The notes under the pieces: generated by a model
Told to the model about the DNA's origin: nothing
The model's database searches: none
The model's input: only the letters and a program-made list of their open reading frames with translations
Origin: Alistipes sp.
Lineage (GTDB): Bacteria; Bacteroidota; Bacteroidia; Bacteroidales; Rikenellaceae
DNA: 64,000 bases
Reading direction: 5' to 3'
NCBI GenBank assembly: GCA_017631275.1
Contig: JAGBTQ010000008.1
Location: 37,165-101,164, forward strand
Made by a program: the position numbers and the translations under genes
In this document: positions 15,391 to 33,914 of the stretch, piece after piece
Layout: every line of letters starts with the position of its first letter
How positions within the stretch are numbered: position 1 is the stretch's first letter

Positions 15391-17228
15391 TTAGTAAAAT
15401 GATTAGATACGACATCCTACTCCATGCTAAGGAGCAGGAGCGATTCGTAAACGAGCTTCGTGAGTTGGGACTCGTGGATATCACAACTACTGGCTGGGAG
15501 CCAACCGAGGCTGACCGAGCACTTCTTCTCGAGATCGAGGCATATAATCGTGCTATAGAGGCTCTTCAGGCATTTGCTAAGGGCGAGGAGTTTAAGGCTG
15601 ACGCTGAGCCATACTTCGATGGCGCTGCGGCTTACGACCGTTATGTCGAGTTGCAGGCACGTCGCTCAGAGATTCTTCAGAAGATAGCACAGCTCGAGAA
15701 GAGCGCATCGGATGTTGAGCCATGGGGTAGCTTCTCACGTGCCGACATCGAGCGTCTTGCAAACGAGGGCGTTACACTACGCACCTTCGTGGCACAGCCA
15801 GCTCAGTACGATGCACTCGTTGCAGAGGATGCTGAGGGCGTTACTGTTGTTGAGATTAATCGTACTCAGTCGTTTGTATATTTCGCTGTTGTGACACGTG
15901 GCATAATGGTCAATGTCGATGGTCAGGAGGTACACCTTCCCGATAGCGACTATAAGGCAACTGTAGCTGAGATTGAGGCTCTTAAGGCTGAGAACGAGGC
16001 GCTTAATGCCGACTACTCACGCATCGCTCGTTCGGTAGATGTTATCGCTGAGCGTCGTGCAGAGCTCAAGGAGCAGCTCCAGGGCTTGAAGGTTGATGCT
16101 ATGGCTACACGTGAGGCTGATGGCAACCTCCTCGTTTTGGAGGGCTGGGCTGAGGCCGAGACCGCAGATAAGGTTGATAAACTTCTCGAGGAGTATCCTA
16201 ACCTTGTATATATGCGTCGTGATGCTACTATCGATGACGAGGCACCTGTGAAACTTAAGAATAATAAGTTTGCACGCTTGTTCGAACTTATCGGCTCGAT
16301 GTACGCCTTGCCTAAGTATGGTACTTTCGACCTTACAGCGATCTTTGGCCCATTCTACATGCTATTCTTTGCTATCTGCTTGTGCGACGCGGGCTACGGT
16401 CTTGTGTTGTTGGCAGTGGGCTTGGCACTACTATTTAAGGGTGGCGAGAGCATGCGTCAGGCAGCCTTGCTATCTATCGTATGTGCCTCAGCAACAGTGG
16501 CATTTGGATTCTATGCCAACTCGTTCTTCGGACTTGCTATTTCGGACTTCGCTCCCGTTATCAAGTTCCTCGACTTCCAAAATCAGTTCTTCTCGATATC
16601 TTTGGCTATCGGTGTAGTTCAGATCTTGGTGGGTATGGCAATCAATATTGTGATGCGAACAAAGCTCTTTGGCTTCACCTCGACATTTGGCCTCTTGGGT
16701 TGGTTTATTATCCTGCTTACTGGCTCGCTTGCTGTAGGTTTGCCAATGTTTGGTATCGGCATCCCAGGCTTCGACACATCATCGCCAGTGTTCTACGGCT
16801 TGATGGGTGTTGGTGCGGTGCTCATGTTGTTGCTCAACAACATTAAGCGCAATCCGCTTATCAACCTTGGCTCGGGCCTTTGGGACGCTTACAACAACAT
16901 CACAGGTCTGCTTAGCGACGTGTTGAGCTACATTCGTCTATTTGCCATCGGTTTGTCGGGTGGTGTATTGGCGCAGGTATTCAACTCGTTGGCTATGGGT
17001 CTATCGGGTCTTGATGCTATGCCTGAGGGCACACCTTGGTACGGCATGATAATGCCTATCGTGGCAGCATCGATAATCTTGCTTATCGGTCACGGTATCA
17101 ACCTATTCATGTCGGCAATCTCGTCATTTGTTCACCCTATGCGTTTGACATTTGTCGAGTTTTATAAGAATGCAGGTTTCGAGATGGGTCAGCGCTCATT
17201 CGATCCTGTGCGTAAAATGAAAGAATAA
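15387..17228 (+). CDS. ntpI: V-type ATP synthase subunit I (a-subunit)
   Basis: Subunit I provides the ion half-channels next to the K ring. The 613-residue protein has a soluble coiled-coil N-terminal half (about residues 1-310) and a C-terminal membrane half with about seven to eight helices. Typical segments are KYGTFDLTAIFGPFYMLFF, then a loop CDAGYGL, and SDVLSYIRLFAIGLSGGVLA, which carries the essential arginine for ion transfer. It ends SFVHPMRLTFVEFYKNAGF. It starts within the subunit D stop codon. Confidence 0.93.
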   Translation: MISKMIRYDILLHAKEQERFVNELRELGLVDITTTGWEPTEADRALLLEIEAYNRAIEALQAFAKGEEFKADAEPYFDGAAAYDRYVELQARRSEILQKIAQLEKSASDVEPWGSFSRADIERLANEGVTLRTFVAQPAQYDALVAEDAEGVTVVEINRTQSFVYFAVVTRGIMVNVDGQEVHLPDSDYKATVAEIEALKAENEALNADYSRIARSVDVIAERRAELKEQLQGLKVDAMATREADGNLLVLEGWAEAETADKVDKLLEEYPNLVYMRRDATIDDEAPVKLKNNKFARLFELIGSMYALPKYGTFDLTAIFGPFYMLFFAICLCDAGYGLVLLAVGLALLFKGGESMRQAALLSIVCASATVAFGFYANSFFGLAISDFAPVIKFLDFQNQFFSISLAIGVVQILVGMAINIVMRTKLFGFTSTFGLLGWFIILLTGSLAVGLPMFGIGIPGFDTSSPVFYGLMGVGAVLMLLLNNIKRNPLINLGSGLWDAYNNITGLLSDVLSYIRLFAIGLSGGVLAQVFNSLAMGLSGLDAMPEGTPWYGMIMPIVAASIILLIGHGINLFMSAISSFVHPMRLTFVEFYKNAGFEMGQRSFDPVRKMKE

Positions 17229-17266
17229 ACAAATAATAATTAACAATTTAAAACATTTTAACAATT

Positions 17267-17716
17267 ATGAGTTCAGCATTAATTTTGGCTTATGTAGGCG
17301 TTGTCCTCATGGTCGGTGTATCAGGTTTGGCTTCAGCTGTTGGTACTGCACGTTGCGGTATGGCTGCAGTAGGTGCTTTGAAGAAGAATGGTGGTGCTTT
17401 CGGTAGCTACATGATTCTTTCAGCGCTCCCAGGTTCACAGGGTCTTTACGGTTTCGTAGGTTACTTCATGGTAGCTTCTAAGATCGTTGCAGAGATGTCT
17501 ATGCTTACAGCAGTAGGTGTATTTGGCGCAGGTTTGTTGATGGCTATCGTATGTTTGTCATCTGCAGTTATGCAGTCAAAGGTTTGTGCTAATGGTATCG
17601 CTGCTATTGGTAACGGTAACGACGTTATGGGTAAGACTCTTATCCTTGCTGCGTTCCCAGAGCTTTATGCTATCTTGGGTGTGGCTGCGACATTCCTTAT
17701 CTCTAATGCAATCTAA
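17267..17716 (+). CDS. ntpK: V-type ATP synthase subunit K (rotor ring), sodium-type ligands
   Basis: Subunit K oligomers form the ion-carrying rotor ring. The 149-residue protein has two homologous hairpins, four membrane helices in all. Compared from memory with Enterococcus hirae NtpK, whose sodium is held by Leu61, Thr64, Gln65, Gln110 and Glu139, this protein has Leu54, Ser57 and Gln58 in ALPGSQGLYGF. It has Gln103 in AVMQSKV and Glu132 in FPELYAI. Four ligands are identical and Thr is replaced by Ser, which favours sodium over proton coupling. It is the last gene of the operon. Confidence 0.93.
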   Translation: MSSALILAYVGVVLMVGVSGLASAVGTARCGMAAVGALKKNGGAFGSYMILSALPGSQGLYGFVGYFMVASKIVAEMSMLTAVGVFGAGLLMAIVCLSSAVMQSKVCANGIAAIGNGNDVMGKTLILAAFPELYAILGVAATFLISNAI

Positions 17717-17717
17717 T

Positions 17718-17906
17718 AATTTCTTGTGATAAGGGCGCATCTGCGGCACATCATTAAAAAGTTGACTGCCCTGGGCTGTACGTCAAAGTACTATCCCAGG
17801 GTAGTCACTTTTTTGATGCACCACATCTCACGACTTCTAACAAGAAATTTTTTTCTCGTGATAAGGGCGCATCTACGGCGCATGCTTAAAAGGCTAACTA
17901 CCCGAG
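17718..17906. repeat. Structured palindromic repeat after the V-ATPase operon
   Basis: A 132-bp imperfect hairpin spans 17718-17849. The outer arms AATTTCTTGT and ACAAGAAATT lie at the ends. A strong inner stem pairs 17756-17775 with 17795-17814, with CCCTGGG facing CCCAGGG and A-runs facing T-runs, and the loop itself contains GTAC...GTAC. A second partial copy in direct orientation starts at 17855 and shares GTGATAAGGGCGCATCT with the first. The right arm is a third, inverted and diverged version. The layout resembles clustered extragenic palindromes. An 87-codon reading frame crosses it, but its protein repeats only mirror the DNA repeats. Confidence 0.7.
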
Positions 17907-17949
17907 AGGTCTTCTTTTGTGATAGACTAAGCCTGACTATAAAAAACAT

Positions 17950-17985
17950 ATCCCTCTTGGTTAAGTCCAAGAGGGATTATTATTT
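17950..17985. terminator. Terminator between V-ATPase operon and ruvB
   Basis: An 11-bp perfect stem (ATCCCTCTTGG at 17950-17960 with CCAAGAGGGAT at 17967-17977) has a 6-nt loop and is followed by TATTATTTAT. It sits between convergent transcription units. Confidence 0.75.
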
Positions 17986-18002
17986 ATAGCTTTTACCTAA
18001 TG

Positions 18003-19019
18003 TTAGAATAGAGATTGTTCGTCGCCTCGTGAGTAGGCGTAGCCGAGGTGCTTATAGGCAAGCTCTGTGGCCTCACGACCTCGAGGGGTGCGCTTGAGGA
18101 AACCCTCTTTAATCAGGAATGGCTCATAGACCTCCTCGATGGTGCCAGCCTCCTCGCTAACCGCCGTAGCAACGGTGTTTAGACCAACAGGACCTCCGTT
18201 AAACTTCTCGATAATCGTAGCCAATATTTTGTTGTCCATCTGGTCAAGGCCTCGCGAGTCGATGTTGAGAGCAGAGAGGGCAACTCGTGTGATATCCACG
18301 TCGATATGTCCCTCGCCCTCGACCATGGCAAAGTCGCGAACGCGGCGAAGTAGAGCGTTGGCAATACGTGGTGTGCCACGTGAGCGCAAAGCAATCTCGA
18401 GGGCTGCATCGTCATCGATCGAGATGTCGAGGATTGAGGCTGAGCGTTTTACGATTCCAGCAAGAATTGGGGCATCGTAGTACTCGAGGTGGCAGGTGAT
18501 ACCAAAGCGGGCACGTAGTGGGGCAGTGAGCAGACCGCTACGTGTGGTTGCGCCAACAAGCGTGAAGGGGGCAAGCTCAATCTGAATGGAGCGTGCCGCA
18601 GGGCCCTTATCCAACACAATGTCGATTTTGTAGTCCTCCATTGCCGAGTAGAGATACTCCTCGACAATGGGGCTGAGGCGGTGAATCTCGTCGATGAAGA
18701 GCACGTCGCCAGGGTTAAGGTTGGTGAGCAAGCCCGCAAGGTCGCCAGGCTTGTCGAGCACGGGGCCCGACGTAACCTTAAGCTGTGCGCCCATCTCGTT
18801 GGCGATGATGTTGGCAAGGGTGGTCTTACCCAATCCTGGAGGGCCATGAAGCAGTGTGTGGTCGAGCGAGTCGCCACGCATGAGTGCTGCCTTGATAAAT
18901 ATCTTGAGGTTGGCGACAATCTTGTCCTGACCCGCAAAGTTTTGAAGCTGTTGTGGGCGAATGCGGCTCTCAAACTCCTTGTCGCTCTCAATGTTTCGCA
19001 TGTTTCTATCTACTCCCAT
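18003..19019 (-). CDS. ruvB: Holliday junction branch-migration helicase RuvB
   Basis: RuvB is the hexameric AAA+ motor that drives Holliday-junction migration with RuvA. The 338-residue protein has Walker [13 protein letters not shown], Walker [12 protein letters not shown], sensor [18 protein letters not shown] and the C-terminal winged-helix domain with [17 protein letters not shown]. The initiating ATG at 19019 lies about 13 bases after the predicted transcription start. It stands alone here, without ruvA or ruvC. Confidence 0.96.
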
Positions 19020-19038
19020 AATCGGAAAAATTATTATG

Positions 19039-19046
19039 CAAATATA
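19039..19046 (-). promoter_or_regulatory. -7 promoter element of ruvB
   Basis: On the minus strand, TATATTTG is followed about 20 bases later by the ruvB ATG, so the leader would be only about 13 nt. No strong -33 box was identified. Confidence 0.5.
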
Positions 19047-19161
19047 CTCTTTTTTCGTTAATGATGCAATAGCTACCCCCGATGCTCGTCACTCTTTGTA
19101 GCATAATTTATGTGAAGTAGTAATTTTAGTTAAAAGATTTTATTTATTCCAAAAATCATGT

Positions 19162-19202
19162 TATCTTTGCATGCTCCATATTATCTCTTTAGAGATATAT
19201 GG
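19162..19202 (+). promoter_or_regulatory. Promoter element and 5'-end hairpin of the nuclease/TonB locus
   Basis: TATCTTTG (19162-19169) is a -7 box. The predicted start near 19176 coincides with the base of a hairpin: CCATAT and ATCTC (19176-19187, with one bulged T) pair with GAGATATATGG (19192-19202) around a TTTA loop. A stem at the very 5' end of an mRNA commonly protects it from decay. About 60 nt of leader remain before the first start codon. Confidence 0.55.
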
Positions 19203-19265
19203 TGGCGATGAAAAATTGACTAACATAACATTTAAAAACTTTTTATTCACTTAAACAATTTCATT

Positions 19266-22200
19266 ATGGCAAACAAACTTTTTAAGTCACTCTTTGCTGT
19301 TGCAATGGTCTTGGGCTCTGCTCTAGGCTTTGTGGCGTGTGAGGAGCCTAACGAGGTTGTTGGCGATCCTACTGTGGAGGTGTCAACAAAGTCGTTGAAC
19401 TTTACAAATGAGGAGGGTAGCCAGGAGGTTGAGATCACATGTAACGTCGATTGGACGGCTACTGTTGATGCTGACTGGATTACTGTAGCTCCTGCTGCTG
19501 GTAGCAAGAACGGTACTATCACCGTTGCTGTATCGGCTAACGAGACTGGTGCTATTCGTACTGCAACTGTACGTGTTAGCGCTATCCACCCTCAGTACAA
19601 CGAGGAGTGGGACAACAAGAAGATCACTGTGCAGCAGTCTGCTGACGAGAATGTGACCGTAACTGAGGAGCTTCTCTACAGCGATGACTTCGACGGTAAG
19701 GAGGCAACTAAGACCTACGGTTCAGGTTCTTCTTGGCCTTACATCGACCAGTTCCCTGAGTTCGCTAACGCTGAGGGTGATGCTGCTGCTAACGTAACCT
19801 ACACCGGTTCTGGTGTATCTGTACGTGCTAACTCAACATCTAACAGCTCATACTCTGACTACGCTGGTTCAGGCTCTAATAACATCTTCTTCGGCGGTGG
19901 CGCTTACTTCCAGGTAAACACTATTGCTCCATTGGAGGGTGTTAACTACAAGGTTACTTTCGGTACTGAGAAGTATACTCAGGATGGCGACAGCACATTT
20001 AAGCCTGAGGAGTTCTTGATGTACATTTCGAAGGATGGTGAGAAGTGGGCTCCGGTAGAGTACACATTTGCTGGCACTGAGCCTGGTCGTTGGAACGTTG
20101 CTACTGCAAACTTCACACTCAAGGCAGCTACTGAGACTCTTTACATCAAGTTTGAGGCTAAGGTTGCTTCAGTTTATCGTCTTGACGACCTTAAGCTCTA
20201 CACTGGTAACGGCGGTCAGGAGATCGACCTTGATAACATTCAGGAGCCAGAGCCTCCAACACCTCCTACAACAGATGCTCTCTACTTCGAGAACTTCGAT
20301 GGTAAGGCTGCTGTTAAAGATGGTAACTACTGGCCATATGTAACTGACTTCCCAGAGATGAAGAATGCTGCGGGTGTTGCTGCTGCAAACGTATCTTACG
20401 ATGGTCACAACACAACTGTTCGTAACAACTCTAACTCTGACGGTTCATACTCAGACTACGCAGGTTCTGGTCTTAACAACATCTTCTTCGGTAAGGTTGA
20501 GAACCACTTTACTATCAAGGGCCTTGCTTTGGAGTCTTCAAACAAGAACCTTACATTGACTTTCGGTACTGAGAAGTACTCACAGACATTGGGCAGCAAG
20601 TTCACTCCATCTGAGTTTATCGTGTCGCTTTCGGCTGATGGCGAGAAGTGGACATCTATCGACTACACATTTGCTGGTACTGCTGAGGGTCGTTGGAACG
20701 TAGCTACTGCAAACTTCACTCTAAAGGAGGTTCCTGCTACACTTTACATCAAGTTCTCTGCTACTGCTGAGAGCGCATACCGTCTTGATGACGTAACATT
20801 GGAGATGGGTGATGGTGGTCAGGAGATCGACCTTGCTAATGGTACTCAGAACCCTGGTGGTGGCGAGGAGCCAGATCAGCCAGAGAACCCTGATCAGCCA
20901 AATGTTCCTGCAAATGGCATCTACGAGTCAGACTCAGCATTTGTTTGCACTACTGATGACTCAACAAACGCAGCTTACTCATTGGGCGCAACAACTATCA
21001 ATGGCGAGGCTGTAACAGGTTTCAAGTTGGGTAAGTCAAAGCAGGCTGGTAAGTTTACTTCTGGTGCTGTAGGTGTAGAGGGTGCTAAGTATCTCAACTT
21101 CTATGCTCAGGGCTGGAAGGGTGGCGATGTAACCCTTTACTTCCGTGTTGACGGTGGCGCTACTCAGTCAGTTAAACTCGCTTCACACGATGGTGTAACA
21201 GGTAATCCTCCATACACAGCTCTTGCATTTGCTGATACAGACCACTACTCATTCTTGCTTGAGGGCTTGACAGCTTCTTCAAAGATTGAGTTCTCAACAG
21301 ATGCTAACTTCGCACTCACAACTGCTGATTCAACAATGGCTTCTGCACGTGCTATCGTGTGCGGTATGAAGCTCTCTGACGAGGCTAATGGTAACGAGGG
21401 TGGCAACGAGAATCCTACTCCAGAGCCAGAGCCAGAACCAGAGCCTACTCCAGACACTATGACTATTGCTGATGTTTTGGCTAAGGGTAATGGTGCAACT
21501 ATCGGTGGCGTTATCGAGGGTGTTGTAGTATCTAACCTCGATTTGAACAATCTCACTTCAAAGAAGGGTATGTATGTTCAGGACGAGACTGGTGCTTTGC
21601 AGTTCTACCTTGCAGCTAACCATACATTCGCTTTCGGCACAAAGGTTCGTATCGACCTTACTACAGCTACTCTTGGTTCATATAACGGTGCTGTTCAGGT
21701 TAGCGGTGTAGCGTTGGATAAGATTGAGGTAATCTCAACTGGCAACACTGTAGAGGCTAAGACTGTATCTGTGACTGACTTCCTTGCTAATAAGTATGAG
21801 GGTCAGTATATCGCTTTGGAGGGCGTTCAGGTAGCTGAGTCAGACCTTTCTAAGACTTGGGTAATGGGTGGTGCTCACACATCTATTAACATGGAGGATG
21901 CTGCTGGCAACAAGTTCGTTGTATTCTCATCTAAGTATGCTTCTTACGGTGCTGAGACTGTAGCTCAGGGCTCAGGTGTAATCAAGGGTATCTCTTCAAT
22001 CAACAATGGCACAATGCAGATTATCTTTGCTCAGGCATCTGACTTCGCTGGTTTGACTGGCGAGCGTTTTGGTAACACAACACCAGAGCCAGATCCTACT
22101 CCAGATCCAGAGCCTACTCCAGAGCCAGAGCCAGGTACAGGTGCAACTGCAACTATCTACTTCGACAATATTGCAAACCGCACAGCTTTCTCAACTGAGC

Positions 22201-22532
22201 AGCAGGTATGGGAGCAGAATGGTATCACAGTAACTAATGACAAGGCTGCTTCAACAAGCAACGTTGGCGACTACTACAACCCTGCTCGTTTCTACAAGAA
22301 CTCTAACGTAACAGTAGAGGCTGATGCTGCGTTCTCACAGATTGTATTCAACTGCGACGATTACAAGGCTACATATGTTACAGACCTTCAGGCATCATTC
22401 AGCTCAGGTAAAGTTTCTGTTGATGGCACTACATTGACAGTAACATTGAATTCTGCTGCAACATCATACGCTATTACTAATCTTGCAGGTCAGGTACGTG
22501 TGGATAGCATTACTGTTGTTTACGCTGAGTAA
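19266..22532 (+). CDS. Large surface lipoprotein with BACON, duplicated and DUF5689-like domains
   Basis: This 1088-residue protein is a predicted surface lipoprotein. The N-terminal signal ends in a lipobox-like FVAC near residue 25, followed by a BACON-type Ig domain at about 36-125 (VDADWITVAPAAGSKNGTI). Two copies of a roughly 185-residue domain follow at about 135-320 and 339-525. They share SYSDYAGSG.NNIFFG, FGTEKY, YTFAGT and GRWNVATANFTLK, and each ends GGQEIDL. After a further beta-rich region and a Pro/Glu linker comes an OB-fold DUF5689-like domain at about 733-935. A second Pro/Glu linker and a C-terminal beta domain finish the protein. OB folds often bind nucleic acids. Codon use suggests high expression. 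I infer that it captures substrate for the nucleases encoded downstream. Confidence 0.8.
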   Translation: MANKLFKSLFAVAMVLGSALGFVACEEPNEVVGDPTVEVSTKSLNFTNEEGSQEVEITCNVDWTATVDADWITVAPAAGSKNGTITVAVSANETGAIRTATVRVSAIHPQYNEEWDNKKITVQQSADENVTVTEELLYSDDFDGKEATKTYGSGSSWPYIDQFPEFANAEGDAAANVTYTGSGVSVRANSTSNSSYSDYAGSGSNNIFFGGGAYFQVNTIAPLEGVNYKVTFGTEKYTQDGDSTFKPEEFLMYISKDGEKWAPVEYTFAGTEPGRWNVATANFTLKAATETLYIKFEAKVASVYRLDDLKLYTGNGGQEIDLDNIQEPEPPTPPTTDALYFENFDGKAAVKDGNYWPYVTDFPEMKNAAGVAAANVSYDGHNTTVRNNSNSDGSYSDYAGSGLNNIFFGKVENHFTIKGLALESSNKNLTLTFGTEKYSQTLGSKFTPSEFIVSLSADGEKWTSIDYTFAGTAEGRWNVATANFTLKEVPATLYIKFSATAESAYRLDDVTLEMGDGGQEIDLANGTQNPGGGEEPDQPENPDQPNVPANGIYESDSAFVCTTDDSTNAAYSLGATTINGEAVTGFKLGKSKQAGKFTSGAVGVEGAKYLNFYAQGWKGGDVTLYFRVDGGATQSVKLASHDGVTGNPPYTALAFADTDHYSFLLEGLTASSKIEFSTDANFALTTADSTMASARAIVCGMKLSDEANGNEGGNENPTPEPEPEPEPTPDTMTIADVLAKGNGATIGGVIEGVVVSNLDLNNLTSKKGMYVQDETGALQFYLAANHTFAFGTKVRIDLTTATLGSYNGAVQVSGVALDKIEVISTGNTVEAKTVSVTDFLANKYEGQYIALEGVQVAESDLSKTWVMGGAHTSINMEDAAGNKFVVFSSKYASYGAETVAQGSGVIKGISSINNGTMQIIFAQASDFAGLTGERFGNTTPEPDPTPDPEPTPEPEPGTGATATIYFDNIANRTAFSTEQQVWEQNGITVTNDKAASTSNVGDYYNPARFYKNSNVTVEADAAFSQIVFNCDDYKATYVTDLQASFSSGKVSVDGTTLTVTLNSAATSYAITNLAGQVRVDSITVVYAE

Positions 22533-22541
22533 TTTCTATCA

Positions 22542-22589
22542 TCTTTCGCCAACGATCGGGTGGGGCAACCCACCCGAGAGGGCGAGAGA
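22542..22589 (+). other. Intercistronic RNA hairpin with GNRA tetraloop
   Basis: An inner 8-bp GC-rich stem (22557-22564 with 22569-22576) closes a GCAA tetraloop. An outer 9-bp stem (TCTTTCGCC at 22542-22550 with GGCGAGAGA at 22581-22589) encloses it across a small internal loop. There is no U-run, so it is probably not a simple terminator. It lies between the lipoprotein stop and the nuclease start and may set their relative expression by stabilising or processing the mRNA. Confidence 0.75.
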
Positions 22590-22619
22590 AAACTAATAAA
22601 AATTATCAAACTTAAATTT

Positions 22620-23822
22620 ATGCTAAAAGTAGCAAATAAGATATTTATTGCTTTGTGGTGTGTGGCAGCTGCAATGTTGTGTGGTTGCGAGAATATCTCG
22701 ATGCAGATTGTTGAGAGTAATGCCTATCTACAAAATGAAACCGTAAATGGCGATAGCAAGAATTGCGCTGTGGTGCTCGAGGCACAACAGGGTACATCTT
22801 ACGTGATAACCATTGAGTCGGAGGAGGACTGGGCACACTTCTCGGGTGGTGTGAATGTTATCGAGGGTGAGATGACAAGCAATACAAAGGTTGTCTTTAT
22901 CTACTTTTCGAAGAACGACTCGGGTGTAAGCCGTGAGGCAACACTCAAGGTGGAGTTCTCAGACCATAAGCACTACTCGCTAACACTTACACAAAATAGC
23001 TACGATAGCTCAATTGCCCTTCAGCGCGACTGGGCAGAGTTGCCCGTATGCAAGGCCGAGGGTCGCTATATATACAATGCAATATATGGCGAGCTTGGTG
23101 CTAAGAGCAATGCCCGCAACTATACCTACTGTTTCGACCCCTCTGTGCGTGCATCGTTGTGGGTGGCCTATCCGCTGCACTCGGCATACACAACAGGTAG
23201 TGGCAACCGTAACTATAGCTCGTTTGGCTACGACCCACTGGTAGATGATGAGCTTCAGGCGGCGCTTGGTCGTGGCTCGTATAACGGCTGGTATGATCGT
23301 GGTCACCAGCTCCCAGCTGCCGACCGTAAGTGCTCGCAGCAGATGATGGATCAGACATTTTATGCAACAAATATGACTCCTCAACAGGCAAACTTCAACC
23401 AGAAGAAGTGGGGCGCCTTGGAGGGTAGGGTGCGTGGCATGATCTGCTCAGATACACTCTATGTCGTTACTGGCGCATATTTCGAGGGTACTCACCACTC
23501 GTCAATAGCATCGAGCACAACAGATAAGATGGGAAGTAAGTGTCCTACGCCTACCTACTACTACAAGGCGTTGCTTCGCACAAAGAAGGGCAACACGGGT
23601 AAGACTATTGCGGAGATTACCGACCCATCGGAGCTTCGTGCCGTGGTATTTTGGTTGCAGCACCAGAACTCGGGCGAAGATACAACCATCACCGCTGCCG
23701 ACTGTATCACTGTCGAGGAGCTCGAAGCAAAGACAGGCTTTACCTTCTTCCCAATGCTTGACGATGCTATTGAGCAGCAGGTAAAGTCAACAATCGAGCC
23801 TAAGGAGTGGGGTATTTACTAA
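22620..23822 (+). CDS. Secreted DNA/RNA non-specific endonuclease, lipoprotein
   Basis: This 400-residue protein begins with a lipoprotein signal (AAAMLCGC) and a BACON-like domain at about residues 35-125. A NUC1-type (beta-beta-alpha metal) nuclease domain occupies the rest. The catalytic motif DRGHQLPAADR starts at about residue 226, with His229 as general base, and TNMTPQQANFNQKKW supplies the metal-binding Asn. Such enzymes cut DNA and RNA without sequence preference. The lipobox predicts membrane anchoring, probably outside the cell. The start at 22620 was chosen over an upstream GTG because it alone places the signal peptide at the N-terminus. It lies second in the locus, after a strong hairpin. 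Confidence 0.9.
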   Translation: MLKVANKIFIALWCVAAAMLCGCENISMQIVESNAYLQNETVNGDSKNCAVVLEAQQGTSYVITIESEEDWAHFSGGVNVIEGEMTSNTKVVFIYFSKNDSGVSREATLKVEFSDHKHYSLTLTQNSYDSSIALQRDWAELPVCKAEGRYIYNAIYGELGAKSNARNYTYCFDPSVRASLWVAYPLHSAYTTGSGNRNYSSFGYDPLVDDELQAALGRGSYNGWYDRGHQLPAADRKCSQQMMDQTFYATNMTPQQANFNQKKWGALEGRVRGMICSDTLYVVTGAYFEGTHHSSIASSTTDKMGSKCPTPTYYYKALLRTKKGNTGKTIAEITDPSELRAVVFWLQHQNSGEDTTITAADCITVEELEAKTGFTFFPMLDDAIEQQVKSTIEPKEWGIY

Positions 23823-23855
23823 TAGACAAAACAATAATTTAATATAAGTAGTACA

Positions 23856-24887
23856 ATGAAAAGATTTCTATTAATCCTATCTGTAATGGTGCTTGCTGCT
23901 ACAACGGTTGTAGCGCAGGATAAGCCATACATGGTGGCATTCTGGAACTTCGAGAACCTTTTCGACATCTACGACGACCCTGAGACTCACGACGAGGAGT
24001 TTACTCCCGAGGGCGTTAAGAAGTGGAACGAGGTGAAGTATCAGAAGAAGCTCTCAAACATGGAGCGTGTGATTTTCGACATGGCAGCAATCAACAAGGA
24101 TTACCCTGTTGTTATCGGCCTATCGGAGATTGAGAACCGTAGCGTGTTGGAGGATTTTGTTAGTCAGCCAAAGCTCAAGGGTGCAAAGTATCGCATCTGT
24201 CACTTCGACTCGCCTGATGCTCGTGGCGTAGATGTGGCGTTCTTGTATCGTGCCGATGTCTTCAAGCTCGAGGGCTCGGACAATATCAAGCTCAACGTTC
24301 CTGAGTTGCCTAACTTCCGCACTCGTGACCTTGTGGTTATGTGGGGTACTATCGAGGGCGAGCCTTTCTACTTCCTCGTGTCGCACTGGCCATCACGTCT
24401 TGGTGGTAAGGAGGCTTCGCAGTTCAAGCGTGATGCTTGTGCAAAGCAGATTCGTGAGATTAAGGACTCGTTGCTCCAGGCAAACCCTGCAACAAAGGTT
24501 GTTGTTATGGGTGACTTCAATGACGATGCTACCGATGCTAGCTTGGTGAAGATTATGGGCGCTAAGGGTAAGCTTAAGGAGCTCCAGACTGGCGACTTCT
24601 TCAACCCTTACTATCAGATGCTAAAGGCTGGCTTGGGTACGTTGGCATATCAAGACTCTTGGAACTTGTTCGATAACATCTGCGTTACCGAGAACCTCGT
24701 AAACGGTACCTATGGTAAGCTTCGCCTTATCAAGGGCAAGAAGTTCTATGGTAACATCTTCACTCGCCCATACATGCTTCAGCAGGAGGGTCAGTACAAG
24801 GGTTATCCATTGCGTACGTTTGTTACCAACAACTTCCAGAATGGTTTTAGCGACCACTTCCCCGTATATATCTATATCGGCAAATAA
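23856..24887 (+). CDS. Secreted endonuclease/exonuclease/phosphatase family protein
   Basis: This 343-residue protein has a cleaved signal peptide (ending TTVVAQ) and a full EEP (DNase I-like) fold. The motifs are FWNFENLFD for the metal-binding Asn, GLSEIENR for the catalytic Glu, LVSHWPSR, VVMGDFNDD and the terminal FSDHFPVY with the catalytic His. Relatives act on DNA, RNA, nucleotides or phosphoesters, so the exact substrate is open. It sits between the non-specific nuclease and a TonB receptor, which favours a periplasmic or extracellular role in trimming nucleic acids. Confidence 0.9.
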   Translation: MKRFLLILSVMVLAATTVVAQDKPYMVAFWNFENLFDIYDDPETHDEEFTPEGVKKWNEVKYQKKLSNMERVIFDMAAINKDYPVVIGLSEIENRSVLEDFVSQPKLKGAKYRICHFDSPDARGVDVAFLYRADVFKLEGSDNIKLNVPELPNFRTRDLVVMWGTIEGEPFYFLVSHWPSRLGGKEASQFKRDACAKQIREIKDSLLQANPATKVVVMGDFNDDATDASLVKIMGAKGKLKELQTGDFFNPYYQMLKAGLGTLAYQDSWNLFDNICVTENLVNGTYGKLRLIKGKKFYGNIFTRPYMLQQEGQYKGYPLRTFVTNNFQNGFSDHFPVYIYIGK

Positions 24888-24902
24888 TCAAACATATACT
24901 AT

Positions 24903-27827
24903 ATGAAGAAATTTTTACTAACAGCAATTTGCGCTCTTCTATCGCTTAGTGCCTTTGCGCAGGCGGGCGGTATGAAGGGTACAGTTGTGTCGCGTGACGA
25001 TCGTCAGCCAATTAGCGGTGTAACGGTTATGGTTGATGGCGTTCAGGTGGCAACAACTGACAATAGTGGCGAGTTCTATGTTGACGGCTACGCAGCTGGT
25101 CAGTACCAGATGACATTCGCAGCACAGGACTTCGAGGATCTTCAGCTCATGGTGCGTGTTAAGGAGCTTGTTCACGACATGCAGCAGGTTGTCATGATTC
25201 CTGCAGAGACAGTCGTTGTTGATGACTCGGCATTTGCTGAGCTCGACACCGATGCAGAGTCTATGGGCGACAACAACGCTATGCAGTCGGTGCTTACTGC
25301 ATCTAAGGACTTGTTCAACAACATCGCCTCGTATCGCTTCTCGGAGATGCGCTTCAAGAATCGTGGCTACGACTCGCAGTATGAGGAGATCTACCTCAAC
25401 GGTATCCGATTCAACGATGCGCTCACAAGCTACGGCCCATGGTCGTTGTGGAGCGGTTTGAACGATGCTACACGTAACCAGGAGATTGCCTCAGGCCTTG
25501 GTATGTCAGACTTCGGCTTGGGTGGTGTTGCGGGTACAACAAACATCAATGCACGTGCTTCACAGCTCCGCAAGGGTTTCCGTGCAAGCGTTGTAAACTC
25601 TACTCAGCTCTACCGCTTCCGTGCTATGGTTAGCTACGCATCAGGTCAGCTCGACAACGGTTGGTCATATGGTTTCACACTCTCTACACGTCAGGGTGGT
25701 GCTGGCTATGTTGATGGTGTGTATTACAATGCCTACGGATATTTCTTCTCTGCTGAGAAGGCGTTCAATAACAAGCATCGCTTGTCGGCTACCATCATGG
25801 CAGCACCTACACAGCGTGGTGCTCAGCAGGCATCTACTCAGGAGGCTTACGACCTTTGGGACGACAACTACTACAACCCTAACGTAGGTTTGCAGAATGG
25901 CGAGTTGCGTAACTCACGTGTGAGAAACATGCACGAGCCTATCGCTATGCTTAACTACAACTGGCAGATTTCGGAGCGCACATCGCTCTCTGCTGCTACG
26001 TCGTTGCGCTTCGGTTTTAATGGCTACTCAGCCTTGACATGGTATCAGGGTGAGGACCCACGTCCCGACTACTACCGTCGATTACCATCATACTATGGCG
26101 ACCGTTATGAGCGTCGTTTGCGCCTCAATAAGTTTGCTGAGAACAACGATATGACACTTCCTTTCACTGAGGTTGACCTCGAGACTGATAAGCTAAAGTA
26201 TCGTGAGTTTATGCAGAACTGGAATGGCTATATCGACTTTGATGGCTTGATTCGTGATAACAAGCGTGGCGATGTTGATTCGCGTTATGGCGAGGGTCAC
26301 CGCTCTTATGCTATGATCGAGGAGCGTCATACCGACCAGCTTGACTACAACTTCGTAGCACAGCTCAACCATGTATTCCGTGGTGGCTCGAAGCTTACAG
26401 CAGGTATTCGTGCACGTGTAAACCGCACTGAGTATTACAGCGAGGTTAAGGACTTGCTTGGTGGCGACTACTGGTTGGACGTTGATAAGTTTGCTGAGCG
26501 TGACTTTGGTAGCAACGACCTTGCTTATCAGAACAACATGGCATACTACCGTGAGCACGGCAAGGCTCAGGCAGTAAAGGAGGGCGAGAAGTACAACTAC
26601 GACTACTATGCTCACGTGCGTCAGGGTCAGATTTGGGCTGCATACGAGGTTAAGGCTGGTGGCTTCACTGCTGACCTTGGTGCCGAGGTTGGTGCTTCAA
26701 GCATGTGGCGTCAGGGTCTTTGGGAGAAGGGCCTTTTCCTAAATGAGAATGCTGGTGGCGACAAGGGTAAGACATCGTTTGGTAACTCAGATAAGATTAA
26801 CAACCTTACATATAAAGCAAAGGCAAACCTTAGCTACCGCTTCTCGGGTGCTCACTCAGTTGCTTTGAATGCAGTGGCTATGCAGAATGCTCCTACATTC
26901 AACAATGCATTCGTGTCGGCACGTACACGTAACCAGATTACCCCAGGCCTCTCGCCTGAGAAGATCTACGGTGCTGACTTCACTTACAACCTTAACACCC
27001 CTTGGATTCGTGCTCGTGTGTCGGCTTACTACACTCAGATGTACGACCAGTCGAAGGTTATCTCGTTCTACGACGATACTCAGGGCTCGTTCACAAACTT
27101 CGCAATGTCGGGTATCGACAAGCGTTATATGGGTGTTGAGCTCGGTCTTAGCGTGCCTATCGCTTGGGGCTTGTCGTTCCAGAGTGCTGTGAGCCTTGGC
27201 GACTACCGCTACACATCTAACCCAGAGTTCACTCAGATGATTGATAACTCGGCTACAGACGTTGTTCACAGTATCGTTGAGTGGAAGGGTATGAAGGTTG
27301 AGAGCACACCTCAGACAGCTATCAACGTAGGTCTTAACTTCCGTGGTCCTAACAACTGGTACGCAACTGTTGATTTCAACTACTACGACCGCTTGTACTT
27401 GTCGATGAACCCAATGTATCGTACTAAGTATCTCGCCGACGAGATTAAGCGTATCTACGACTACAACAACCTCGAGACAGGTCGTCAGAAGGCAACCGTG
27501 ATGTCTGTTATCGATGAGATTCGTCAGCAGGAGGAGCTTGGTCGTGCCTACACTCTTAGCGCAAGCATCGGTAAGAACTTTAGAATTAAGTATAAATATA
27601 CCCTCGGCTTTAGCCTCCAGGTAAACAATATACTTAACAACCAGACTATCCGCACTGGTGGTTACGAGCAGATGCGACTCAACAAGATATCTGATCCTAT
27701 CATCTTCCCTAACAACGAGGGTGAGTTGAAGATCATTCAGAAGCCTACGACATACTCGCGTTTCGACTCGAAGTATTTCTATATGAATGGCTTGAACTAC
27801 TATCTTAATATTTACTTCCGTTTCTAA
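24903..27827 (+). CDS. TonB-dependent receptor with carboxypeptidase-regulatory domain
   Basis: This 974-residue outer-membrane receptor has a signal peptide (ending LSAFAQA) and a carboxypeptidase-regulatory-like Ig domain at about residues 23-100 (KGTVVSRDDRQPISGVTV). A plug domain follows at about 125-230, with RFKNRGYDSQYEEIYLNGI, and then a long barrel. It is encoded 15 bp after the EEP nuclease and before a DUF5689 lipoprotein. The usual SusD partner is absent; the DUF5689 lipoprotein occupies that position. Imported material is inferred to be nuclease products, such as oligonucleotides or nucleotides. Confidence 0.9.
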   Translation: MKKFLLTAICALLSLSAFAQAGGMKGTVVSRDDRQPISGVTVMVDGVQVATTDNSGEFYVDGYAAGQYQMTFAAQDFEDLQLMVRVKELVHDMQQVVMIPAETVVVDDSAFAELDTDAESMGDNNAMQSVLTASKDLFNNIASYRFSEMRFKNRGYDSQYEEIYLNGIRFNDALTSYGPWSLWSGLNDATRNQEIASGLGMSDFGLGGVAGTTNINARASQLRKGFRASVVNSTQLYRFRAMVSYASGQLDNGWSYGFTLSTRQGGAGYVDGVYYNAYGYFFSAEKAFNNKHRLSATIMAAPTQRGAQQASTQEAYDLWDDNYYNPNVGLQNGELRNSRVRNMHEPIAMLNYNWQISERTSLSAATSLRFGFNGYSALTWYQGEDPRPDYYRRLPSYYGDRYERRLRLNKFAENNDMTLPFTEVDLETDKLKYREFMQNWNGYIDFDGLIRDNKRGDVDSRYGEGHRSYAMIEERHTDQLDYNFVAQLNHVFRGGSKLTAGIRARVNRTEYYSEVKDLLGGDYWLDVDKFAERDFGSNDLAYQNNMAYYREHGKAQAVKEGEKYNYDYYAHVRQGQIWAAYEVKAGGFTADLGAEVGASSMWRQGLWEKGLFLNENAGGDKGKTSFGNSDKINNLTYKAKANLSYRFSGAHSVALNAVAMQNAPTFNNAFVSARTRNQITPGLSPEKIYGADFTYNLNTPWIRARVSAYYTQMYDQSKVISFYDDTQGSFTNFAMSGIDKRYMGVELGLSVPIAWGLSFQSAVSLGDYRYTSNPEFTQMIDNSATDVVHSIVEWKGMKVESTPQTAINVGLNFRGPNNWYATVDFNYYDRLYLSMNPMYRTKYLADEIKRIYDYNNLETGRQKATVMSVIDEIRQQEELGRAYTLSASIGKNFRIKYKYTLGFSLQVNNILNNQTIRTGGYEQMRLNKISDPIIFPNNEGELKIIQKPTTYSRFDSKYFYMNGLNYYLNIYFRF

Positions 27828-27848
27828 CAGCTAAAGATTTAAGATACT

Positions 27849-29126
27849 ATGAAAATTACAAAGATTTTTACACTTCTTGCCGCTGCACTCTTGGCGGTTG
27901 GCTGTTATGAGAAGTTTAGCGATGTAGAGTCGCTTCCTTTGGTTGACGATGCATCGTTCGAGGAGATGTTCCCTGAGGCTGAGCATATCACCATCGCTGA
28001 GCTTAAGAATGCCTTCGGCCCAATTAGCAACACTGGTGTTAATAGCGGCTGGAACAACACAATTTATAAGCTCGTGGGCGAGGATATCTTCGTAGGCCGT
28101 GACGTATATATCAAGGGTAAGGTTATCTCTGACGATACTGAGGGTAACATCTACAAGTCGCTCCATATCCAGGATGCAACCTCTGGTATCGAGCTTAAGC
28201 TAAACAACAGCGTGGGTCTTAAGTATAAGAAGGGCTCATGGGTTTATGTGCGCCTTGAGGGCTTGTACTTGGGTAACTACCGTATGATGCTATCGTTGGG
28301 TGGTGCTCCATCAGAGTCTTATAACAAGGCTGGTGAGCACAAGTTCTATGCTAACTCAAATCTCGAGATTCAGAGCATCATCGACAAGCACGTATTTGCT
28401 GGCGAGATGTCTGAGCTCAAGGTAGGTACTTATGCAGATTGGAAGAGCAACCCTGAGTCGGTGGATATCATCACAGTAACACCTGATAACTATGTCGAGG
28501 TGTTTAATGCTGATAAGGTAAATCTTACAGCTGCTGATGGTAGCTCATTCCAGATGGTTCAGCGTGAGATGATGTTTGGCCGTTTGATGCGCTTCGAGGG
28601 TCTTGAGTGTCGCTATGCTGGTGTGCCTAACCAGGACGGCGTTACTAACCCTGCAATGAAGAGTGGCTCGTATGACAATATCTATCCAAGCTGGTTGTAC
28701 ACCGACCCACGTCCTACAGTGACTAAGGGCTGGTATCAGTGGGCATTCAAGGAGGAGATTACTGGTCGTAGCTTGTATGGCTCAGTATTGTTTACCTACG
28801 ATACTTCGGCAACTATTTGTTCGGCTAATGGTGTCTATTCGTTGCGTACAAGTGGCTACTCGCGCTTTGCACGTCGCAATGTGTGCAAAGATGGCGAGAA
28901 GGCAACAATCACTGCTATCTACGGCATCTATGCGCAGAAGTCAGACTACAAGGCTAATGCCGACGACTGGGCATCGTATCAGTTGTCGATAAGCAGCTAC
29001 TCCGACCTCGAGTTCGAGAATGGCGAGGCTGCATTGCTTACCGACGAGCAGGTTGCTCAGCTCACAACCGAGGATATGAAGACTGTGCCTTGGATTGATG
29101 AGGAGGGCGAGAGCGAGTATCATTAA
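27849..29126 (+). CDS. DUF5689 domain lipoprotein
   Basis: This 425-residue lipoprotein (lipobox LAVGC near residue 20) has a DUF5689/OB-like domain at about residues 45-230, containing GRDVYIKGKVISDDTEGNIYK and LHIQDATSGIELKL. A C-terminal beta-rich domain of unknown family follows. Its OB-like fold resembles the domain in the large lipoprotein that opens the locus. It follows the TonB receptor by 21 bp and may act as the receptor's surface lid or substrate binder, as SusD does for SusC. That role is inference. Confidence 0.82.
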   Translation: MKITKIFTLLAAALLAVGCYEKFSDVESLPLVDDASFEEMFPEAEHITIAELKNAFGPISNTGVNSGWNNTIYKLVGEDIFVGRDVYIKGKVISDDTEGNIYKSLHIQDATSGIELKLNNSVGLKYKKGSWVYVRLEGLYLGNYRMMLSLGGAPSESYNKAGEHKFYANSNLEIQSIIDKHVFAGEMSELKVGTYADWKSNPESVDIITVTPDNYVEVFNADKVNLTAADGSSFQMVQREMMFGRLMRFEGLECRYAGVPNQDGVTNPAMKSGSYDNIYPSWLYTDPRPTVTKGWYQWAFKEEITGRSLYGSVLFTYDTSATICSANGVYSLRTSGYSRFARRNVCKDGEKATITAIYGIYAQKSDYKANADDWASYQLSISSYSDLEFENGEAALLTDEQVAQLTTEDMKTVPWIDEEGESEYH

Positions 29127-29153
29127 TAGATACGCAAACATAAACTTTTCTCT

Positions 29154-29185
29154 GGAGGGTGACTCGTTGAGTTGCCCTCCTTTTT
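29154..29185 (+). terminator. Terminator of the nuclease/TonB/DUF5689 locus
   Basis: GGAGGG pairs with CCCTCC and inner ACTC pairs with GAGT around GTT (29154-29180). TTTTTATATA follows directly. It comes 28 bases after the last stop codon of the locus. Confidence 0.85.
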
Positions 29186-29219
29186 ATATATAGGTATATG
29201 AGATTTGATAATTTTTGTG

Positions 29220-29227
29220 TAAATTTG
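29220..29227 (+). promoter_or_regulatory. -7 promoter element of the GH20 gene
   Basis: TAAATTTG matches TAnnTTTG and lies 15 bases before the GH20 start codon. The nearest upstream TTTG is only 12 bp away, too close for a standard -33 box. Confidence 0.45.
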
Positions 29228-29242
29228 TAAAAATTATCTAAT

Positions 29243-31402
29243 ATGAAACTACGAAACATTCTCTTTGCGTTGGTTGCCACTATGAGCACATGTGTGGTTG
29301 TGGCTAACCCAGCAATAATACCAACACCTAAGTCATATGTTGCTCACGAGGGCGAGTTTAGGCTTACATCGTCGCATAGTGTTACGGTGTCATCATCAAC
29401 GTTGGCACCACTTGCCAACTATCTTGCTCAGCACCTAAACGTAGAAGTGAGCACAAAGGGCGATATTGTGCTTAGGATAGATGCAACGCTTAAGTCGGAG
29501 GAGTATCGACTAAGTGTTACAACTAATAGGGTAGAGATCTTGGGTGGCGACTATGGTGGCGTGTTTAACGGTGTGGCTACACTCATGCAGCTACTGCCAG
29601 CAGATGTATATGATGGTTTGACGCTTCCTGCAACGATTGCTTGTTGCAAGGTCGAAGATGCACCATGTTATGCCTACCGCGGATTTATGCTCGACGTGTG
29701 CCGTACGTGGATTACGAAGGAGGCGATAATGGAGTATATTGACCTACTTGCCTATCATAAGCTAAACAAGCTACGCCTACACCTTACCGACGACGAGGCA
29801 TGGCGCTTGGAGATAAAGTCGCACCCAGAGCTAGCTAAGGTGGGTGGCTTCCGTGGTGGCGATAGCCCTATATGGCCACGCTATGGCAAGTGGACAGAGA
29901 AGTGGGGTGGCTACTATACTCAGGCAGATATGCGCGAGATAATCGAGTATGCCAAGGTGCGCAACATCGAGGTAATTCCCGAGATCGATCTTCCGGGACA
30001 TAGCCTCGCCATGGCATCAATGCACCCCGAGATTTTGTGTAACTACACCCCTAACCTCGAATCATCATTTGGCTACGACACCCGCTCGGCATTCTGCGTG
30101 GCAAAGGAGAGCAACTATGCGCTATTGCACGACATTATCCGTGAGGTGTGTCAGGTGTTTGACACAAAGTATATCCATATTGGTGGCGACGAGGTGGAGA
30201 CATCGCAGTGGAAGCGTTGCCCCGATTGCCAGGCACTTATGACCAAGCTCGGCTACACCGACCCCAAGCAGTTGCAAGCATATTTCATGCGCCGTATCTC
30301 CGATATGCTTGCCGAGTATGGCAAGAAACCCGCAGTGTGGAACGAGGCTATTGATGGCGGAAAGCTCCCTGCAAATACCTTGGTATTTGGCTGGATGGGC
30401 GTTAAGGAGTGTAAACTGTCGGCTGCCAAAGGCTACAAGACGATTGTTATGCCAGGACAATATTTCTACTTCGACATGAAACAGTCGAAGCGTGAGCCGG
30501 GTCACGACTGGGCTGCGATATTCGACTGGAGCAAGACCTATGGCGTGACGCTTACGTCGTTAGGATTTACTGCCGAAGAGCAGAAGAATGTGGCGGGCTT
30601 TGAGGCATCATTCTTTAGCGAGGCATACGCCTCACGCACACCCGAGAGAGCCGATTACCTACACTATCAGACATTCCCACGTATGTTGTCGCTCTCGGAG
30701 ATTTCGTGGGTGAGCAGCGATAGCCGCAACGAGAAGTTGTTCTACGAGAAGATGACCGAGCACTATGCTCGATTAGATGCTATGGGTGTCGCCTATCGTC
30801 TTATGCCTCCGAAGGTTACTTTTGAGAATGGCATGCTTAGTGCCAAGTGCGACGACGGCTCAACGATATATGTTCAAAATGTTGTAACCAACGTGGGCGA
30901 GGTATATACCAAGCCTATAGCGACAACTAAGCCAGAGCGATATGTGTTTGTGTCGCGCCGTGGTAATGCAACATCGCCCGAGGCTGCGGTAGATGGATAT
31001 TTCCGCACGCTGAAGCCTCAGTTTACCATCACTTCATCAATGCCCGAGCATGCAACGATGACATTTGTTAAGGCTCAGGGCTATGGTCGTCTGGCACGCA
31101 CTGCACGTACATGCGATGCTGGCGACTGGGTGCAGTTTACATTCGCTCAGGCGGTGGATTGCCGACGCATGCAGATAGCAACGGGCAACTTCCAGCTTCC
31201 GCGCTTCATATTTGAGCAGGGTTATGCCGAGATTAGCTACGACGGAACGACCTTCGTGCGCGTGGGCGAGTTGCAAAATGGCATGTATATCATCGACAAT
31301 TCGCCACGCCCAATTAAGGCGGTCCGCCTAGTGTGCACCTCACGAGGCAATGGCGCTAAGTATGTGTCGATTCAGCCACCAACCATTTTGCCACGACTAT
31401 AG
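29243..31402 (+). CDS. Beta-N-acetylhexosaminidase, GH20
   Basis: This 719-residue secreted enzyme is predicted to remove terminal N-acetylglucosamine or N-acetylgalactosamine from glycans by substrate-assisted catalysis. After a signal peptide it has the GH20b N-terminal domain (about residues 25-135) and the GH20 barrel. The barrel starts YRGFMLDVCRTWI and carries the catalytic pair Asp316-Glu317 in HIGGDEVE. Later come FGWMGVKECKLSAAKGY and a C-terminal beta domain resembling a discoidin-type carbohydrate-binding module. It has its own promoter and terminator. Mucin or peptidoglycan-derived glycans are plausible substrates. Confidence 0.93.
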   Translation: MKLRNILFALVATMSTCVVVANPAIIPTPKSYVAHEGEFRLTSSHSVTVSSSTLAPLANYLAQHLNVEVSTKGDIVLRIDATLKSEEYRLSVTTNRVEILGGDYGGVFNGVATLMQLLPADVYDGLTLPATIACCKVEDAPCYAYRGFMLDVCRTWITKEAIMEYIDLLAYHKLNKLRLHLTDDEAWRLEIKSHPELAKVGGFRGGDSPIWPRYGKWTEKWGGYYTQADMREIIEYAKVRNIEVIPEIDLPGHSLAMASMHPEILCNYTPNLESSFGYDTRSAFCVAKESNYALLHDIIREVCQVFDTKYIHIGGDEVETSQWKRCPDCQALMTKLGYTDPKQLQAYFMRRISDMLAEYGKKPAVWNEAIDGGKLPANTLVFGWMGVKECKLSAAKGYKTIVMPGQYFYFDMKQSKREPGHDWAAIFDWSKTYGVTLTSLGFTAEEQKNVAGFEASFFSEAYASRTPERADYLHYQTFPRMLSLSEISWVSSDSRNEKLFYEKMTEHYARLDAMGVAYRLMPPKVTFENGMLSAKCDDGSTIYVQNVVTNVGEVYTKPIATTKPERYVFVSRRGNATSPEAAVDGYFRTLKPQFTITSSMPEHATMTFVKAQGYGRLARTARTCDAGDWVQFTFAQAVDCRRMQIATGNFQLPRFIFEQGYAEISYDGTTFVRVGELQNGMYIIDNSPRPIKAVRLVCTSRGNGAKYVSIQPPTILPRL

Positions 31403-31415
31403 CAGTAGGGTAGAT

Positions 31416-31455
31416 AAAAAAATAAGTTGTCCAACGCGGACAACTTATTTTTTTT
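31416..31455. terminator. Bidirectional terminator between GH20 gene and yajC
   Basis: A long perfect stem (AAAAAATAAGTTGTCC against GGACAACTTATTTTTTTT) has a 5-nt loop. Its A-run and T-run serve both convergent units. Confidence 0.9.
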
Positions 31456-31471
31456 GTTTATCGTTGCTCTA

Positions 31472-31894: not shown

Positions 31895-31963
31895 AGTTTT
31901 AAATATTTAATTAATTTATTTGTGTGCTTAACGTTATGTTATATAAAATATTGTGCTGGAAGC

Positions 31964-33891: not shown

Positions 33892-33914
33892 AAATGGTAG
33901 ATTAAGCGGAGAAA

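Follow-up and report, generated by a model that had tools for sequence, protein, structure and literature searches.

According to the accessible text of a 2021 Bacteroidota screen (PMC8459023), natural transformation of Riemerella anatipestifer requires both a receptor (RA0C_RS04915) and a DUF5689 protein (RA0C_RS04920), markerless deletion of either gene lowering it from 5.4e-5 to below 4.2e-10. The same text states that double-stranded DNA is converted to single strands by 'a yet unknown mechanism', mentions a possible ComEC nuclease, and gives no mutant of the endonuclease/exonuclease/phosphatase (EEP) gene. It describes the homologs as widespread in the Bacteroidetes and also the receptor as found only in the Flavobacteriaceae. 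Mutants in tonBA and tonBB show reduced transformation, the effect of tonBB being attributed by its authors to iron shortage (PMC8383284, accessible part), and transformation in this species is reported to depend on iron and TonB generally. As far as our literature search shows, the crossing of the outer membrane by outside DNA in the Bacteroidota is an open question. Among the matches listed by that search, which covered mostly open-access journal literature, no further paper deals with the receptor pair or with a comparable locus for using nucleic acids.

The stretch of Alistipes sp. DNA analysed here (the window; 64,000 nucleotides) contains five co-directed genes on the + strand between positions 19266 and 29126 (g1 to g5; Table 1), coding for a BACON/DUF5689 protein, an Endonuclease_NS lipoprotein, an exported EEP nuclease, a TonB-receptor-like barrel and a DUF5689 lipoprotein. 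The single orientation given in the preliminary description is borne out by the open reading frames, and the Pfam assignments agree with its gene calls. The successive intergenic gaps are 87, 33, 15 and 21 bases, where the start of g2 is taken as the ATG at 22620, inside the GTG open reading frame listed from 22560. One promoter and one terminator had also been proposed. A promoter-like element, TATCTTTG, which we take to be a Bacteroidetes -7 type motif, and a terminator are indeed present. A very stable hairpin lies between g1 and g2, and a single uniform transcript is no more than a possibility. As classes, promoter-like sites (22 vs 17.9) and terminator-like sites (12 vs 10.0) are no commoner in the region than in shuffled sequences. 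The g1/g2 junctions of the two relatives that were folded (L038 and L039) also carry a hairpin (z -3.5 and -5.5), unrelated in sequence to that of the window. An Rfam search of positions 17000-31500 returned nothing at gathering scores. The GC content of g1 to g5, in which a base-composition mark of recent acquisition was sought, is 0.472-0.495, compared with 0.483 for the window.

Table 1. Features of the five-gene run and its flanking elements (positions within the window)
Feature	Position	Strand	Basis
Promoter-like TATCTTTG element	19162-19169	+	Read from sequence
5' UTR stem-loop	19173-19206	+	z -2.8 for 19172-19268
g1, 1088-aa lipoprotein-like protein	19266-22532	+	Pfam BACON, DUF5689
Strong intercistronic hairpin between g1 and g2, without T run	22542-22589	+	z -6.9
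g2, lipoprotein-like DNA/RNA non-specific endonuclease (PF01223)	22620-23822	+	Pfam, DRGH motif
g3, exported endonuclease/exonuclease/phosphatase (PF19580)	23856-24887	+	Pfam
g4, TonB-receptor-like protein of the outer membrane, extended N-terminally by CarboxypepD_reg	24903-27827	+	Pfam, tree; ortholog of RA0C_RS04915
g5, DUF5689 lipoprotein-like protein, receptor partner	27849-29126	+	Pfam; counterpart of RA0C_RS04920
Intrinsic terminator with a 12-pair stem followed by a T run	29154-29180	+	Read/folded from sequence

The g1 protein comprises a BACON domain (39.6 bits), two repeats of about 200 amino acids that are 57% identical, a DUF5689 domain (residues 731-926; 104.7 bits) and a C-terminal region, and its one match among solved structures covers residues 8-106. 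The Endonuclease_NS domain of g2 scores 130.9 bits against a gathering cut-off of 23; its translation contains a DRGH motif, presumably that of the Endonuclease_NS active site, and in the PDB it matches chains of Endonuclease G, EXOG and further extracellular nucleases. The EEP domain (Exo_endo_phos_3, 371.6 bits) is the sole Pfam domain in g3, which is the single PF19580 match in the assembly. In g4, CarboxypepD_reg scores 37.3 bits and Plug 15.0, below its cut-off of 23.9, and no barrel model matched; seven of 20 members of the receptor family reach the Plug model with E <= 0.01, the best of them with 5.1e-8. Its designation as a TonB receptor is thus based on the N-terminal extension, the weak plug signal and length. 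Directly downstream, g5 matches DUF5689 with 96.8 bits. Solved-structure searches returned no relative for g5 or the DUF5689 alignment, matches restricted to the N-terminal extension for the receptor profile, and none for EEP at E <= 0.01. Comparison of DUF5689 with tRNA-synthetase OB domains gives a plausible register in weak alignments, with an hhalign score of 18.4 vs 10.2-14.9 for four controls that is not significant (probability 2%).

The link to R. anatipestifer runs through one locus, L129, in which the gene order is ComEC, two genes, EEP, receptor and DUF5689, so that ComEC lies four genes away and the EEP nuclease between it and the receptor/DUF5689 pair. L129 is taken as the RA0C_RS04915/RS04920 locus because RS04895 to RS04920 imply this same order, because its closest matches in named Chryseobacterium (receptor 65.8% identity, DUF5689 43.0%) agree with the values in the accessible text of PMC8459023 (65.9% and 43.01%), and because the GC content of its 20-kb stretch is 35.3%, compared with 35% published for R. 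anatipestifer. The window and L129 receptors align over their full length with 320 bits and 26% identity, and g3 keeps the EEP residues conserved in its alignment with the L129 EEP. In a receptor tree of 109 rows, triad receptors are split from 11 paralogues with an SH-aLRT support of 100, and family codes mostly cluster, such that the topology largely follows them. On sequence and tree evidence, g4 is assigned as a true ortholog of RA0C_RS04915 and g5 as the counterpart of RA0C_RS04920.

The receptor and DUF5689 genes, usually with an EEP gene, recur across the order of the window (taken as Bacteroidales) and in the Flavobacteriia. DUF5689 adjoins the receptor in all 39 same-order loci, 26 of 27 from the phylum and 18 of 19 picks from family f123 (36/39, 26/27 and 17/19 under a strict same-strand rule). 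The same holds for all 80 named loci among those listed (74 under the strict rule), a set drawn from matches listed in at least 592 rows and in which Riemerella does not occur. An EEP gene lies within 3 kb of the receptor in 32/39, 22/27 and 18/19 loci, respectively, and in 61 of the 80 named loci listed; 17 of the 80 have no EEP neighbour. Among 11 paralogous-receptor control loci, one has a DUF5689 neighbour and one an EEP neighbour, and the linkage therefore exceeds the control. Conserved co-occurrence, the check suggested in the preliminary description, is thereby supported, as is DUF5689 as the partner of the receptor. Endonuclease_NS is scarcer: it occurs within 6 kb in seven of the 39 same-order loci and in none of 126 other triad-receptor loci, and the full five-gene order is found in five of the 39, all near relatives. 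The surface nuclease g2 and the BACON protein g1 are best read, from these distributions, as add-ons in near kin. ComEC is near the receptor in 3/19 f123 loci and 0/80 named loci listed, as judged from local DNA only with a single-sequence profile.

Gene content, conserved neighbourhood and homology, together with the published requirement for the pair in R. anatipestifer, suggest that the locus is an outer-membrane DNA-import module (probability about 0.6). Its core, g3-g4-g5, would be either the outer-membrane apparatus with which the Bacteroidota carry out natural transformation or a copy of that apparatus turned to feeding. The DUF5689 proteins (g5, and g1 with its extra binding domains) would capture DNA at the cell surface, where g2 would first trim long molecules. 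The g4 barrel would carry DNA into the periplasm, where g3 would process it and plausibly supply the single strand that ComEC requires; we infer that the organism of the window may itself be transformable. Its genome also encodes ComEC, DprA and a multi-HHH protein (HHH DNA-binding). The ComEC and DprA profiles match 10/14 and 11/14 control genomes as well, and their presence here is therefore weak evidence.

The preliminary description had read the locus as a PUL-like system with nucleic acid as the likely substrate. The substrate is supported; to see the locus as purely nutritional is probably too restrictive. A nutritional reading would have extracellular nucleic acid digested and the pieces imported as a source of phosphate, nitrogen or purine, the window holding a food-specialised second copy and the C6 set described below serving transformation. 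This is unlikely, although several observations agree with it. The locus combines two nucleases with a large binding protein, and the same genome carries a diverged receptor, C6 (817 aa), with a tandem DUF5689 pair. The two family relatives examined have the C6-type set only, and the window copy may therefore be a food specialist that is not for transformation. Transformation of R. columbina rises about five-fold without peptone and two-fold without phosphate, leading its authors to suggest DNA as food, and SusCD-type systems with phosphodiesterases serve phosphate acquisition in Flavobacterium (PMC8115612, accessible part). Against this, the five-gene locus carries the sole receptor match at the E-value used in genomes G059, G165 and G126, and in them it therefore takes the place of the conserved core. 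In the available part of the source, transformation of R. anatipestifer falls when phosphate or peptone is left out, the opposite of R. columbina. None of the five proteins matches a SusD model (Pfam, E <= 1), and no PUL-type regulator (HTCS, SusR, ECF/anti-sigma) was recognised by eye among the open reading frames of 15000-34000.

It is very improbable that the locus serves degradation of biofilm-matrix or host DNA together with adhesion, the receptor importing something else. The Endonuclease_NS surface protein and the BACON/adhesin-like g1 would fit such a role, but DUF5689 and EEP, not the sparsely distributed Endonuclease_NS, are the partners conserved with the receptor, and the Riemerella pair is needed for transformation. 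About as improbable is that the receptor imports some other nutrient or cofactor on which competence depends indirectly, with the nucleases adjoining for another reason: the general iron and TonB dependence noted above is consistent with it, but the receptor/DUF5689/exported nuclease linkage persists through same-order and Flavobacteriia loci and both R. anatipestifer deletions abolish detectable transformation. A defence-system or phage origin is rejected, as none of the five proteins matched PADLOC at E <= 0.001 and PHROGs returned just a nuclease model for g2 and, for g3, a weak match to a model whose function is unknown.

The present analysis puts true orthologs of the receptor outside the Flavobacteriia, with an exported nuclease as their usual third neighbour. 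More tentatively, the Bacteroidota may possess an ancient, pilus-independent, TonB-powered importer of double-stranded DNA, built of the receptor and a DUF5689 DNA-binding lid, with EEP as the missing strand-degrading enzyme and a surface endonuclease added in some relatives of the window, so that one pore could serve both genetic exchange and feeding.

Among known systems, SusCD PULs and the phosphate PusCD system (PMC8115612, accessible part) likewise group a TonB-type receptor and a surface lipoprotein with degradative enzymes in a single gene run, but the run in the window has neither a SusD family match nor a glycan enzyme and its receptor tree largely follows family codes. The ExeM/NucH DNases (NF033681) are EEP-type exported nucleases like g3, which itself scores 28.7 bits and so falls below the family's curated cut-off of 300. 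LTD domains, present on some DUF5689 proteins, also occur in Flavobacterium EndA1/2 (PMC8115612, same part), while g2 resembles EndoG/NucA-type endonucleases in its PDB matches and differs in being lipoprotein-like and lying within an import-type locus. The Riemerella pair shares with the window a CarboxypepD_reg receptor followed by a DUF5689 gene and adjoined by EEP (L129). The window differs in that its genome has a second diverged set and in that its EEP gene precedes the receptor gene in the same direction within one gene run, which also codes for an Endonuclease_NS surface protein and for BACON/DUF5689.

The five-gene locus is real and conserved. All five neighbouring, co-directed genes of the preliminary description are present, with a promoter-like element, TATCTTTG, upstream of g1 and a strong terminator after g5. 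Two repeats of ~200 residues, mutually 57% identical, occur inside g1. The relatives of g2 by match are of the EndoG and NucA types. Judged by eye, the N-termini of g1, g2 and g5 look like lipoprotein signals and that of g3 like an ordinary signal peptide; a loose lipobox pattern matches 138 of 187 DUF5689 proteins, as against 2 of 142 EEP proteins. The g1/g2 junction forms an exceptionally stable RNA hairpin (z -6.9), and hairpins of unrelated sequence occur at this junction in L038 (z -3.5) and L039 (z -5.5), the relatives that were folded, perhaps as a transcript-end or stability element after a large surface-protein gene. Another stem-loop lies in the 5' UTR, immediately 3' of the promoter-like site.

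Positions of the genes and elements discussed (window coordinates unless a contig or locus is named)
Feature	Position	Strand	Remark
5' UTR stem-loop	19173-19206		
g1	19266-22532	+	BACON and DUF5689 (Pfam)
g1/g2 junction hairpin	22542-22589		
g2	22620-23822	+	Endonuclease_NS (Pfam)
g3	23856-24887	+	Exo_endo_phos_3 (Pfam)
g4	24903-27827	+	CarboxypepD_reg (Pfam); Plug under cut-off
g5	27849-29126	+	DUF5689 (Pfam)
Diverged receptor, 817 aa	G000:C6 (window genome), L037:14624-17077		No Pfam match
Two tandem small DUF5689 proteins	G000:C6, L037:5215-6754		~8 kb from diverged receptor
g1-like protein	L056:5597-7348		BACON, DUF5689 and lamin-tail domain
CRISPR-type genes	L129:13994-19432		Cas9-like (1145 aa), Cas1-like, Cas2-like; by eye

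The co-occurrence proposed in the preliminary description is widespread for receptor and DUF5689, mostly with EEP, and recurs in the window's order, the phylum sample, family f123 and named loci; its Endonuclease_NS component occurs in few loci. Receptor matches (E <= 1e-20, weaker paralogues counted in) were obtained in 186 of 295 genomes of the order. Among 39 neighbourhoods drawn from the better-scoring matches, the receptor has a DUF5689 gene within 3 kb in all 39 (36 under a strict same-strand, non-overlapping rule) and an EEP gene in 32, with Endonuclease_NS within 6 kb in only seven and the five-gene order in five (L038, L039, L040, L041 and L072), the first gene of L041 matching the N-terminal part of g1 only. 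Endonuclease_NS is instead downstream in L042 and L056. The latter also encodes a g1-like protein with a lamin-tail domain, a domain also assigned to Flavobacterium EndA nucleases (PMC8115612). At phylum level 128 of 296 genomes matched (E <= 1e-15), and 27 neighbourhoods taken from 42 matches above 650 bits, with the window and family f60 left out, contain DUF5689 in 26 and a divergent EEP gene in 22 cases. Family f123 matched in 143 of 148 genomes (E <= 1e-60), with DUF5689 (strict 17) and EEP each in 18 of 19 neighbourhoods. In the 80 named loci from the matches listed, DUF5689 always falls within the next three ORFs (strict 74) and a divergent EEP gene lies 5' of the receptor in 61; two receptors are at a contig end, and the remaining 17, all from Flavobacterium or Flavobacteriaceae records, retain receptor and DUF5689 without the EEP neighbour (L191, L203, L205, L207, L209, L211-L215, L218-L220, L222-L225). 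Eleven lower-scoring paralogous receptors, taken as a control, have nearby DUF5689 and nearby EEP once each. The picks are biased to high-scoring receptors, so that these rates apply to the true receptor clade, and the locus sets partly overlap (L188 and L121, the latter being G581:C54, are each on a 2,955,061-base contig). The MAG loci L186 and L190 resemble flavobacterial ones despite record titles of Rhizobium and Candidatus Nitrotoga, and these MAGs may therefore be mis-binned.

A tree of 109 receptors was built by a quick LG+G4 method without bootstrap and leaves 24 of its 106 inner branches unsupported. Receptors of the receptor, DUF5689 and EEP triad separate from paralogues in it with an SH-aLRT of 100, and family codes represented by several receptors mostly form clusters. 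Named Weeksellaceae and Flavobacteriaceae loci group with f123 and f124, which were taken accordingly as these families, and the phylum as Bacteroidota; the window's order is probably Bacteroidales. The window receptor groups first with f60 as its sister and next with f9 and f88. Receptor descent thus looks old and mostly vertical, a pattern atypical of PULs. An exception is the window's own family: G113 and G213 each have one close, shorter receptor followed by two tandem DUF5689 genes, the three genes being adjacent in the family loci L243 and L244. A diverged relative of this set is found on contig C6 of the window genome, additional to the window locus, its receptor forming a long branch of unsure position. 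The window locus may have been acquired or retained beside the C6 set; its base composition bears no mark of acquisition. The sole PF19580 match in the 87.5%-complete window assembly is g3; G113 and G213 also contain a single match apiece, located on a different contig from the receptor.

Within the literature searched, a single paper mentions DUF5689, a study that used transposon mutagenesis to screen Riemerella anatipestifer for natural transformation (PMC8459023). It describes RA0C_RS04915 (CarboxypepD_reg, outer membrane) and RA0C_RS04920 (DUF5689 and DUF5017) as one predicted operon, markerless removal of either abolishing transformation (wild type 5.4e-5, with detection down to 4.2e-10), and names RS04895 as ComEC. 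Locus L129 is R. anatipestifer-like, and its genome is one contig of 2,164,087 bases; the order there is ComEC, hypothetical, acyl-CoA carboxylase-like gene and EEP (all minus; middle genes named by eye), then receptor and DUF5689 (both plus). This order fits the locus-tag spacing, which would make RS04910 the EEP gene. Compared with named Chryseobacterium, the L129 proteins reach at best 65.8% (receptor), 43.0% (DUF5689) and 73.7% (EEP) identity, the first two given as 65.9% and 43.01% in Table 4 of PMC8459023; on these figures EEP is the best conserved of the three. In the text of that paper, RS04910 is mentioned once, as an upstream gene in a polarity test, and Tables 1 and 2 list no mutant of it. 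The window and L129 receptors align over their full length (320 bits, 26% identity). CRISPR-type genes lie 3' of the L129 pair.

The favoured reading is that g1-g5 form a DNA-import module, in which the need for receptor and DUF5689 is genetic, from Riemerella, and the remaining steps are proposed. Long DNA would first be shortened by the surface Endonuclease_NS (g2), captured at the surface by the DUF5689 proteins, passed inward through the TonB-energised receptor and processed in the periplasm by EEP, one strand then being taken up via ComEC. The window genome encodes ComEC and DprA, both near-universal, as well as a protein of 366 aa that has several HHH matches. In R. anatipestifer, transformation is reduced when tonBA or tonBB is mutated (PMC8383284), the tonBB effect being put down to iron by the authors.

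Nutritional use of nucleic acid is a possible alternative. R. columbina is reported to transform more when peptone or phosphate is left out, the authors of that work proposing DNA as food, whereas R. anatipestifer transforms less under these conditions. F. johnsoniae is described as non-transformable with conditions kept the same, which, set beside the 17 Flavobacterium-type loci lacking EEP, is only a hint, none of the named loci examined being from F. johnsoniae. Flavobacterium phosphate systems employ SusCD-type pairs (PMC8115612), whereas none of the five window proteins has a Pfam match to the SusD family. The window locus fits best as a variant of the Riemerella-type DNA-uptake apparatus, one that carries additional nuclease parts, and it may serve DNA uptake in the window organism.
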